Positions 555-6,235 of a stretch of 6,498 bases of DNA are shown here, one piece after another. Origin of the DNA: an uncultured delta proteobacterium (GTDB lineage Bacteria > RBG-13-61-14 > DRUE01); the NCBI GenBank assembly GCA_903930515.1, contig CAIYYW010000121.1, forward strand, positions 1-6,498, read 5' to 3'. The notes under the pieces were generated by a model that saw only the letters and a list, made by a program, of their open reading frames with translations, ran no database searches and had not been told where the DNA came from. How positions within the stretch are numbered: the stretch's first letter is position 1; each line of letters opens with the position of its first letter. The position numbers were made by a program, and so were the translations under genes.

Positions 555-791
555 ATGAAGAAAGGACTGATTGTGGTTGATCCTAAGATTATGATGGGCA
601 AGCCGGTGATCAAGGGGACGCGGATACCGGTGGAGTTGATTCTTGAGAAGCTGGCGATGGGAGAGAGCGAGGCTCAGATCCTGGCGGAGCATCCTCGGCT
701 TACCCGGGAGGCGATTCATACGGCATTGGCTTTTGCGGCCAAGACCCTCCGGGCGGATGTGGTGTATCCGGTATCCGAGGCTTCTGATTGA
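555..791 (+). CDS. DUF433 family antitoxin (VapB45-like)
   Basis: This 78-residue protein has the full DUF433 (PF04255) signature. The central GKPVIKGTRIPV is at residues 15-26, followed by a helix-turn-helix-like region (VELILEKLAMGESEAQIL, 26-43) and HPRLTREAIHTALAFAAK at 46-63. In this family the motif forms a small winged-helix-like fold, and many members are antitoxins of PIN-type toxins such as VapB45. The length is normal. An ideal ribosome binding site precedes the ATG. The downstream toxin gene starts inside this gene's stop codon, so the two are translationally coupled, with antitoxin first as is usual. It presumably binds and inhibits the DUF5615 protein and may repress its own promoter; both are inferred from the family. 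A sampled line (661-720) is about 62% G+C, higher than the toxin gene. Confidence 0.9.
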   Translation: MKKGLIVVDPKIMMGKPVIKGTRIPVELILEKLAMGESEAQILAEHPRLTREAIHTALAFAAKTLRADVVYPVSEASD

Positions 792-1141
792 AGTTTGTTT
801 TAGACGAAAGTGTTGATGCGCCGATCGCGTTTCGTTTAACCAAGGACGGGCATAGGGTAATTTGCGTTTGGGAATCATCGCGGAGCGCTTCGGACACTCA
901 GGTTTTATCTCTGGCCAATAAAAATCGGGCGATTTTAATTACCGCGGACCGCGATTTTGGCGAGTTGGTATTCCGGCTGGAAAAAGCCCATTATGGAGTG
1001 ATCTTGATCCGGTTGAGCGGATTGCCGATCAAGGAAAAAGTTGAAATTATGTCCCGGGTTATTGCGGAGCACGGCGAAAAGCTTTCCGAATCATTTACGG
1101 TAGTTAAGCCCGGCTTGATCAGAATCAGGGTCGGCTCATAA
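788..1141 (+). CDS. DUF5615 PIN-like toxin (putative ribonuclease)
   Basis: This 117-residue protein begins MKFVLDESVDAPIAFRL and carries TADRDFGEL at residues 52-60, followed by GVILIRLSG. This is the pattern of the DUF5615 PIN-like family (PF18480), partner of DUF433. The acidic residues D6, D36, D54 and D56 are candidates for the metal-binding nuclease centre, so nothing suggests an inactive copy. The start is a TTG at 788-790 whose last two bases belong to the antitoxin TGA (789-791). It has no separate ribosome binding site beyond the coupling, and a weak start would help keep toxin below antitoxin. A sampled line (901-960) is about 45% G+C, lower than the antitoxin. PIN-domain toxins of this kind usually cleave RNA; the target here is unknown. 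Confidence 0.87.
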   Translation: MKFVLDESVDAPIAFRLTKDGHRVICVWESSRSASDTQVLSLANKNRAILITADRDFGELVFRLEKAHYGVILIRLSGLPIKEKVEIMSRVIAEHGEKLSESFTVVKPGLIRIRVGS

Positions 1142-4406: not shown

Positions 4407-4452
4407 GTAGGGGGCAGACACTCCTGTAGGGGGCGGGACACTCCTGTCCCGC
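4407..4452. repeat. Direct repeat plus perfect GCGGGACA hairpin
   Basis: GTAGGGGGCAGACACTCCT (4407-4425) is followed at once by a near-copy, GTAGGGGGCGGGACACTCCT (4426-4445). The second copy runs into a perfect hairpin: GCGGGACA (4433-4440), loop CTCC, TGTCCCGC (4445-4452). The unit looks like a REP-type intergenic repeat. It lies just upstream of the GH172-tldD promoter. No T-run follows on either side, so terminator function is doubtful. Confidence 0.6.
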
Positions 4453-4654
4453 ATTCTTCGTCCTGAGCATAATCCTGGTGGGCGCTACATTCTTGCCTGT
4501 CCTCCGTAACCCTGTCCAACAGAATGAAGATGAATCCGCGAACCGGTAAATAAATCGCAGTCAAATTTCAACTAAAAGTCTGACCACAAAAAAGCTGGCT
4601 ACCGGCTACTGTTTTGATCTGTGCGGCTTGGCCTTAACTATAAACTTTAGACCT
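4453..4654. other. Non-coding stretch, no gene seen
   Basis: Between the hairpin and the tandem repeat I find no supported gene on either strand. The stretch includes the diverged dispersed repeat at 4496-4517 and the string CTGGCTACCGGCTACTG at 4595-4611, whose last ten bases are the reverse complement of 163-172. It reads like accumulated repeat fragments. Confidence 0.5.
4496..4517 (+). repeat. Dispersed repeat, diverged copy 2
   Basis: The 21 bases from 4496 match 1203-1223 at 17 positions in the same orientation (shared CCTGTCCT, CGTA, CC). I read it as a diverged member of the same family as copies at 1203-1230 and 6099-6126. Confidence 0.4.
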
Positions 4655-4690
4655 GACCCCGGCGATGTGACCGACCCCGGCGATGTGACC
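4655..4690. repeat. Exact 18-bp tandem duplication
   Basis: GACCCCGGCGATGTGACC occurs twice head to tail, at 4655-4672 and 4673-4690, without a mismatch. The second copy abuts the stop codon of the truncated DUF1156 stub (4691-4693), so the reading frame of that gene ends exactly where this element begins. The GACCCC end recalls the dispersed GGGTC element seen elsewhere in the window. Confidence 0.75.
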
Positions 4691-4747
4691 CTAGTTTTCA
4701 ATCGGAAAATCCACCCCTATGAGACGCTTGCAGTCCTTTGGAATCAT
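4691..4747 (-). pseudogene. 5' stub of a DUF1156 DNA methylase gene, truncated
   Basis: An ATG at 4747-4745 overlaps the TGA of the SIR2-family gene (ATGA, four-base overlap), the classic layout of a coupled second gene. It reads MIPKDCKRLIGVDFPIEN and stops at TAG 4693-4691. As I remember them, N-termini of DUF1156 proteins (PF06634/COG1743, adenine-specific DNA methylases with a zinc ribbon) have this form and position, with KDCKRL-x-EVDFPI just after the start. They then continue through a conserved stretch containing WWARRPL, which is missing here. G11 replaces the usual Glu, which could be drift after inactivation. The frame ends at the 18-bp tandem repeat, and I see no resumption beyond it. 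The match rests on 18 residues and memory, not a search; a coincidental short frame is the alternative. Confidence 0.6.
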
Positions 4748-5877
4748 TTCCGGTCGGCAATCCTTTCTAAATACTGATGAAAATCATCTCTAAACCATTG
4801 GTCAAAATATATTGGCTGAGTATCAGTTGTTTCTCCAAAAAACCTTTTATACCTCACTTGCGTCTTTTGCTTTGTCCCGCAAACAGTAGTAATCGTAAAA
4901 GCGATGCCATTTCTTTTGGCTAGTTGGGCTGATTTCAGCAAATGTTTAAACTCATAATCTGCCTCGGGCAAAGAATAACCAATAAAAAGCCAATGATCTG
5001 CTTCGGAAAGCCTCCGATGAGTTTTCTCCCATATGGTCCCGAACTGGCTAAGTGATAAATCTTTCCTGAAACTAAAAGTTCCGATTCGAGTACTTAGCCC
5101 GTTATGGCAATAGGGACAATCTGCCGGCGAGCTTTGCTTGATAGCTTCTAATGATTCAGGCATACCCTCTGGTGCACCTAATAATTCAAAATCTTCCTTA
5201 TTGATTAAGACTCTTCTCTCCAAAGGTACCTTGCCAACACCGGGTTTGGCAGTAAATATTCGCCGGCAATTATTGCAATAGACCCAATTAGCGGAGCCAT
5301 GAGCCTTTAGGATTGACAAATCACGCTGCGGCAAAACTTCTTTTGAAACGAAGTCCTCAATTTCAATCCCATAATCGAATGTATAGTCTTTCTCAATTTC
5401 TGGCAGCATCTGAATTGCAAAAAGGCATTTCTCTACCACAATATCCCAGTTCAATGTAATGATATCGATATGGAAATTATTCTTTAATTGAAGCAATAGG
5501 CTTCCAATATTATCATTTCTCCCGCGAGGCAGATCAAGTCTTTCAAAGACCCTGTGAATACTAAATCTACGAATAGCTCTCAATTTTTTGGGTTCATAAT
5601 GCTCGCCAAGGCAATGACCTGTATTTGCTGCTAAATCAATGGTGGTAAAATGTTCTTCTAAAGTGGGCTTCTGATGGTTGTCTTCATAGCCAAATGCGTA
5701 CCGCCAAAATTCCCTCAATTTATCTGTTATAAAATTGTCAATTTCTGGGGTAAGAACAGTTTTATCGGCTGGAGGAGGTTCAAGCAATTCATCATTTAGT
5801 TTTGAAGCAACCGGGAGCCCTGCCGCTTTTGAAAATCCGGAGCCTAGGATAAGAGCTAATTTAGGTTTGTCTGGCAT
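4744..5877 (-). CDS. SIR2-fold NAD-dependent protein with zinc site
   Basis: This protein has 377 residues from the ATG at 5877. An in-frame GTG at 5883 is the alternative start, and neither has a strong ribosome binding site. SIR2-superfamily landmarks appear in order: LILGSGFSKAAGLP near residues 9-22 (NAD-binding loop), TLNWD at 141-145 (catalytic Asn region), KAHGS with H193 (catalytic His), and GYSLPEADYEF from 300 (the late NAD-binding segment). Cysteine pairs C201-x2-C204 and C254-x2-C257 form a probable zinc site as in protein deacylases. All key residues look present, so the protein should bind and process NAD, either hydrolysing it as in phage-defence effectors or deacylating a protein. 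Which one cannot be told from sequence. The next gene, a truncated DUF1156 methylase, is coupled through ATGA and points to defence. A sampled line (5401-5460) is 38% G+C against 57-68% in the GH172-tldD operon, which suggests transfer. Confidence 0.85.
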   Translation of the reverse strand: MPDKPKLALILGSGFSKAAGLPVASKLNDELLEPPPADKTVLTPEIDNFITDKLREFWRYAFGYEDNHQKPTLEEHFTTIDLAANTGHCLGEHYEPKKLRAIRRFSIHRVFERLDLPRGRNDNIGSLLLQLKNNFHIDIITLNWDIVVEKCLFAIQMLPEIEKDYTFDYGIEIEDFVSKEVLPQRDLSILKAHGSANWVYCNNCRRIFTAKPGVGKVPLERRVLINKEDFELLGAPEGMPESLEAIKQSSPADCPYCHNGLSTRIGTFSFRKDLSLSQFGTIWEKTHRRLSEADHWLFIGYSLPEADYEFKHLLKSAQLAKRNGIAFTITTVCGTKQKTQVRYKRFFGETTDTQPIYFDQWFRDDFHQYLERIADRK

Positions 5878-5886
5878 ACACACAAA

Positions 5887-5904
5887 GGGTCAAACCTCGG
5901 CATT
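5887..5904 (+). repeat. Dispersed repeat GGGTCAAACCTCGRCATT, copy B
   Basis: These bases match 365-382 at 17 of 18 positions. The copy ends only nine bases before the ATG of the SIR2-family gene (three before the GTG), so the native leader and ribosome binding site may have been replaced by repeat DNA. Together with the tandem repeat at 4655-4690 it brackets the SIR2-DUF1156 fragment. Confidence 0.55.
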
Positions 5905-5956
5905 AGACATTTCACGCACTTTTTGCCCTGAGCGCCAGCATAAAATTCAATCTCCT

Positions 5957-6000
5957 CCCCTTCCCATCGTTTCCCTCTCCTCCCCCATTTAGGGGGGGGG
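5957..6000. other. Pyrimidine tract, hairpin and nine-G run upstream of SIR2 gene
   Basis: The plus strand is almost pure pyrimidine from about 5950 to 5986, so the SIR2 leader on the minus strand is purine-rich. It carries four G-tracts (5986-5982, 5975-5973, 5965-5963, 5960-5957) with loops of six, seven and two bases, which fits a canonical G-quadruplex pattern. CCCCC (5982-5986), loop ATTTA and the start of a run of nine G (5992-6000) form a hairpin. The homopolymer could be slippery in replication or unreliable in assembly. Confidence 0.45.
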
Positions 6001-6036
6001 CAAATTTACTGCTTTTTAAATTAACTTCTGGAGGGA

Positions 6037-6065
6037 ATTATGCCGGAATTTAAAAAGGGTGTCAA
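6037..6065 (-). promoter_or_regulatory. Candidate promoter for the SIR2-family gene
   Basis: On the minus strand, a perfect TTGACA (6065-6060) and CATAAT (6042-6037, five of six to consensus) are separated by exactly 17 bases. Transcription would start near 6030 and read through the purine-rich leader into the SIR2-family gene, giving a leader of about 150 bases. Spacing and boxes are strong; assignment to that gene is inference. Confidence 0.5.
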
Positions 6066-6068
6066 ATC

Positions 6069-6126
6069 GGAAGCGCGAAGCACTGTATCGCGGCTTCCAC
6101 CTTCGCCAAGGCTACGGCGGACAAGG
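6069..6126. repeat. Hairpin plus dispersed repeat copy 3
   Basis: GGAAGCGCGA (6069-6078) can pair with TCGCGGCTTCC (6088-6098) with one bulge. The hairpin is followed by CTTCGCCAAGGCTACGGCGG (6101-6120) and then ACAAGG, a reversed copy of the repeat at 1203-1230. In one plus frame the repeat translates as LRQGYGGQ, a peptide I recognise from spurious ORFs over such repeats in metagenomic genomes. GCGAAGCAC occurs at 6075-6083 and again at 6175-6183, exactly 100 bases apart. No gene is evident from here to the RCC1 stop at 6236. Confidence 0.55.
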
Positions 6127-6235
6127 ACGTCGCTCGCATCCTGCTCCGCCTGCTGCTCTGCAAAGTAGTTCGCTGCGAAGCACGAGGAAACCGGATGCGA
6201 TACCGCTTGCCGACCCTTTGTTCACATTATTGAAT

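Follow-up and report, generated by a model that had tools for sequence, protein, structure and literature searches.

How does an intact SIR2-family gene come to end on the start codon of a methylase gene of which only a fragment remains, and what might such a gene do? This question is raised by the complete 6,498-base contig C121 (the whole stretch of DNA analyzed here, hereafter the window), which belongs to a draft genome of 3.65 Mb in 401 contigs that is 93% complete. The genes beside the segment of interest (Table 1) have no link to defense, with DUF2961 and TldD/PmbA genes on one side and an RCC1-repeat protein gene on the other side, and the low GC content of the segment compared with its TldD and DUF2961 neighbors fits horizontal gain, so that this segment was probably acquired horizontally. 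Elsewhere in the window, a DUF433 gene overlaps a DUF5615 (PIN-like) gene (555-1141, plus strand), a pair in the typical antitoxin-toxin style, and a 20-bp tandem repeat, GTAGGGGGCGAGACACTCCT, is present at 4407-4447, with matching sequence on other contigs of the genome.

Table 1. Features of the SIR2-methylase segment and its flanks (window coordinates)
Feature	Coordinates	Strand	Basis
SIR2-family gene, 377 aa from ATG, intact, no internal stop	4744..5877	-	ORF, profile matches, fold
18-codon stub: 16 DUF1156 (HmaB) codons, 2 unrelated codons, stop	4691..4747	-	Shuffle control, tblastn
18-bp tandem repeat, 2.2 copies, at the truncation point	4650..4690		Tandem Repeats Finder score 75
Low-GC segment	4601..5800		GC 38-43% vs 54-62% in TldD and DUF2961 genes
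Flank, expected place of a helicase or other cassette gene	5878..6235		tblastn, 253 cassette proteins

The two reading frames lie where the initial annotation had placed them and are coupled in the way it described, the TGA of the SIR2 gene (4746-4744) overlapping the ATG of the stub (4747-4745) in the ATGA arrangement. The stub, which translates as MIPKDCKRLIGVDFPIEN followed by the stop, had been likened to the start of DUF1156 DNA methylases, and this likeness reflects homology. In a comparison with 30 PF06634 (DUF1156) loci from diverse genomes, three of which encode methylases that start with MIPKECKRLIEVDFPI or MIPKECKRLAEVDFPI, the best BLOSUM62 score of the stub was 71, against a mean of 27.9 (SD 3.4) and a maximum of 40 for 200 shuffled versions compared with the same DNA. 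The closest intact homolog (L038/G311) is identical to the stub in 14 of the 16 residues when aligned from its own start codon, and the methylase of locus L040 in 13 of the 16. Conversely, when intact methylases were compared with the 420-base flank by tblastn (E about 1e-5), the match extended from the initial Met to residue 16, with nothing beyond. These alignments identify the stub as the genuine beginning of a gene for a DUF1156 methylase. Residue 11 of the stub is Gly, where 11 of 11 aligned intact methylases have Glu, which fits a decaying fragment that is no longer under selection. The methylase gene of L038 (9295-10917) has no helicase gene just upstream and is preceded by non-defense genes, suggesting that this cassette may also be partial.

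The type of cassette to which the stub points is a known one. Methylases of its clade match the PADLOC HmaB model (E 8e-119), and their neighbors match HmaA (helicase) and HmaC (DUF499 ATPase). The combination of a helicase, a DUF1156 N6-methylase and a DUF499 ATPase constitutes the DUF499-centered BREX-related (BR) systems, which are the same as Hma (PMC12839542). The early suggestion that genes for DUF1156 methylases and DUF499 ATPases keep company in defense cassettes thus holds. The system, not recognized at first as a described one, is described as far as its core (helicase, methylase and ATPase) is concerned. The window resembles Hma/BR loci in the homology of the stub to the DUF1156 methylase, the relatives of which are found in the order helicase-methylase-DUF499, and in that accessory effectors reside within such loci; it differs in having kept only the accessory gene and 16 methylase codons. 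Auxiliary nuclease effectors are reported within BR loci (PMC12839542), whereas the accessory gene in the window has a SIR2 fold; the main text of that BREX/BR survey, with its catalog of nucleases, makes no mention of SIR2, sirtuin or NADase-type effectors.

What remains in the window is a remnant of such a system, i.e., a DUF1156 start that directly follows a cargo gene with an ATGA overlap, and not an intact system, given that the methylase is reduced to 16 codons, DUF499 is missing and the contig carries no SNF2-type helicase adjoining the methylase. The tandem repeat abuts the stop codon of the stub. The proposal that the methylase had been lost, leaving the effector without its partner, agrees with the content of the host assembly, which contains no PF06634 match, no match to the full-length methylase of the stub's clade and no DUF499 ATPase (PF04465). 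The flank that should hold the helicase gene or some other member of the cassette yielded no convincing HmaA, HmaB or HmaC remnant in tblastn searches with the cassette proteins; the weak matches obtained (E 0.001-0.04) were set aside as chance ones, being short, of low identity and on mixed strands and frames. The possibility that the flanks are transposon ends was dropped as well, given that 154 kb of host sequence showed no abundance of the motifs found there.

The main caveat concerns the contig itself. In a draft MAG, a contig join at a repeat could mimic a deletion, so that a low-GC SIR2 fragment of another organism might have been fused to this genome at low-complexity or repeat sequence, with the intact cassette located elsewhere. 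The short contig (6.5 kb), the position of the junction at the tandem repeat and the sharp change in GC content are all compatible with such an artifact. However, both flanks contain short repeats that recur on other contigs of the same genome, and the replacement of the invariant Glu in the stub suits a gene in decay, which makes an assembly error unlikely.

The SIR2 gene itself is of the defense type. The encoded protein is matched by the PADLOC SIR2/Aga_SIR2 models (E 2.4e-8 to 1e-5) and, below the curated cut-offs, by Pfam SIR2_2 (E 6.4e-4) and the sirtuin deacylase family PF02146 (E 0.08, 13.3 bits against a cut-off of 24). The catalytic motifs, noted as intact from the outset, are so: the nucleotide-binding GxGxS (residues 12-16), N143 and D145 of the N143-x-D145 motif, and H193 are invariant in five Zn-type relatives. 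The C-x2-C...C-x2-C site that was recognized along with them is conserved in three of its cysteines (C201, C204 and C254) but not in the fourth, C257, which varies among these relatives. An AlphaFold2 model built from eight sequences (pTM 0.73, pLDDT 69.5) shows the best fold match in the PDB to the SIR2 protein of SIR2-HerA (8w9l; Z 16.9, rmsd 4.6, 289 residues), with further matches to DSR2, ThsA, SPARSA and KomC at Z 12-13 and to sirtuins at about 12. Thus, the predicted protein combines a SIR2 fold with the catalytic Asn and His (N143 and H193) of SIR2 defense NADases and, given that the model is closest to the SIR2 of SIR2-HerA, NAD+ depletion appears to be its most likely activity. That the protein is, instead, a deacylase or a regulator rather than a toxic NADase is a thought prompted by the retained zinc-ribbon cysteines, as in deacylase sirtuins, by the HGSxNW motif, which is likewise kept, and by the presence of sirtuins among the fold matches. 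We nevertheless regard this as quite improbable because the best folds are those of the defense SIR2 of SIR2-HerA (Z 15-17 over about 290 residues) and because relatives of the protein are found in prophages and next to a type I R-M-like locus.

The SIR2 component of SIR2-HerA (Nezha), albeit the best structural match with conserved catalytic Asn and His, differs from the window protein in sequence (about 14% identity) and in that the latter possesses zinc-ribbon cysteines; furthermore, no HerA-like ORF is present on the contig. DSR2, Thoeris ThsA, SPARSA and KomC have the SIR2 NADase fold and the defense context in common with the window protein, but the latter, at 377 aa, consists of a SIR2 domain and a zinc ribbon only and is devoid of their extra sensor domains.

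The relatives of the window SIR2 are mostly solitary genes, several of them in prophage-like contigs and one adjoining the R-M-like locus mentioned above; hence, it is plausible that the window gene functions without partners, and this may explain its intact state. A search for close homologs across 84,980 species genomes returned one, at 23%, and a plasmid search returned a homolog from Rhizobium acidisoli, at 37%, which is encoded beside a Vsr endonuclease, without DUF1156. No close homolog was found in phage records, and none of the intact cassettes found contains a Zn-type SIR2 like that of the window. Two IMG/VR viral contigs (L195 and L196) carry near-identical Zn-type SIR2 genes, as if in related prophages.

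The place that the SIR2 gene would have occupied in the parent cassette can be deduced from a survey of 85 DUF1156 loci (mechanical ORF calls, with cargo defined as 100 aa or more). In 61 of these, a helicase gene is encoded upstream on the same strand; 21 of the helicase-bearing loci have no same-strand gene separating the helicase from the methylase, and in 39 the slot between the two holds cargo. Within the stub's own clade, the cargo comprises Schlafen with an SMC-type ATPase (L040), a YhcG PD-(D/E)XK nuclease with AAA_15 and PRTase-CE (L075), MNT-HEPN (L072), HEPN (L039), AAA_13 (L100) and GmrSD-Schlafen (L098), and one locus (L104) has none. The slot that precedes DUF1156 is, accordingly, variable and carries interchangeable effector-like genes. 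In L075 (6350-9132), the AAA_15 ATPase and PRTase-CE represent cargo of the phosphoribosyltransferase type.

SIR2-fold genes occupy two of the 39 cargo-bearing slots (L057 and L164). The L057 gene belongs to DUF4917 by Pfam, with a weak SIR2_2 match, and to the candidate defense family PDC-S21 by PADLOC; it has SIR2-like motifs and its TGA overlaps the DUF1156 ATG as in the window, but it represents a different SIR2 subfamily that is linked to the window protein through profile matches only. In L164 (16192-8102, minus strand), the insert between the Hma-type helicase and the methylase consists of a SIR2_2 gene followed by a 1508-aa PDC-M54A NTPase, along with an 846-aa protein without a Pfam match. 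In addition, in L180 (IMGVR_UViG_3300044948_000910, 12886-18277), a ThsA (SIR2-STALD) gene overlaps the end of the DUF499 gene, and two small ORFs of TIR-like appearance come after it, so that a Hma-type cassette is joined head to tail with Thoeris-like genes. The expectation that SIR2 genes adjoin DUF1156 elsewhere is borne out by the two slots, to which L180 adds a SIR2 gene just after DUF499. None of the three is of the window's SIR2 subfamily, and none lies in the stub's own clade, the other examined members of the stub's subclade being free of SIR2 genes altogether. Plasmid searches with the two other SIR2-type slot proteins yielded, among the matches listed, no record in common with the DUF1156 plasmids, and searches with further centers for the stub methylase mostly returned the same genomes.

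The variability of the slot bears on the original notion of SIR2 as the dedicated partner of the methylase, which we no longer favor; the respective two-gene system, in which the methylase would mark self DNA and restrain or trigger the SIR2 effector, has in its favor the ATGA coupling in the window and L057 but is very unlikely, given that the slots are empty or variously filled, with SIR2-fold genes in two, and that both of these are accompanied by DUF499 and the helicase.

Because the slot cargo is interchangeable and SIR2-fold genes account for two of the 39 cases, we propose (with a probability of about 0.7) that the window gene is a stranded accessory effector, most likely an NADase, of a Hma/DUF499-centered BREX-related cassette. 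The similarity of the stub to intact methylases, far above that of the shuffles, and the absence of PF06634, full-length DUF1156 and DUF499 from the 93% complete assembly argue for this origin. Against it stand the different subfamilies of the SIR2 genes found in the slot, the solitary or prophage location of most relatives of the window SIR2, away from DUF1156, and the sirtuin-like features discussed above. As for the course of events, we infer that the SIR2 gene was once carried as an accessory (backup) effector in the helicase-methylase slot, its stop overlapping the DUF1156 start, and that the remainder of the methylase gene (beyond codon 16) would then have been lost together with the ATPase and with the helicase side, leaving the intact SIR2 gene and the first methylase codons. 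By analogy with SIR2-HerA and DSR systems, the protein would deplete NAD+ and abort infection; in the intact cassette, it might have acted once the methylase-ATPase restriction layer sensed a phage or failed against it. Today, the SIR2 protein would have to act by itself, if it acts at all.

On a broader scale, we tentatively hypothesize that NAD+-depleting SIR2-fold proteins are recurrent, hitherto undescribed backup effectors of DUF499/Hma cassettes that fire when a phage inhibits the restriction layer; with SIR2-fold cargo as rare as two slots and one adjacent Thoeris, this is a conjecture rather than a demonstrated association. If so, a metabolic (NAD+) effector would join the backup effectors of BREX-related systems, a list that in the main text of PMC12839542 names nucleases. 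The window also offers a likely example of an effector left behind after the deletion of its cassette, for which the first codons of a neighboring gene serve as evidence of origin, and the helicase-methylase slot is a simple place to seek new effectors.
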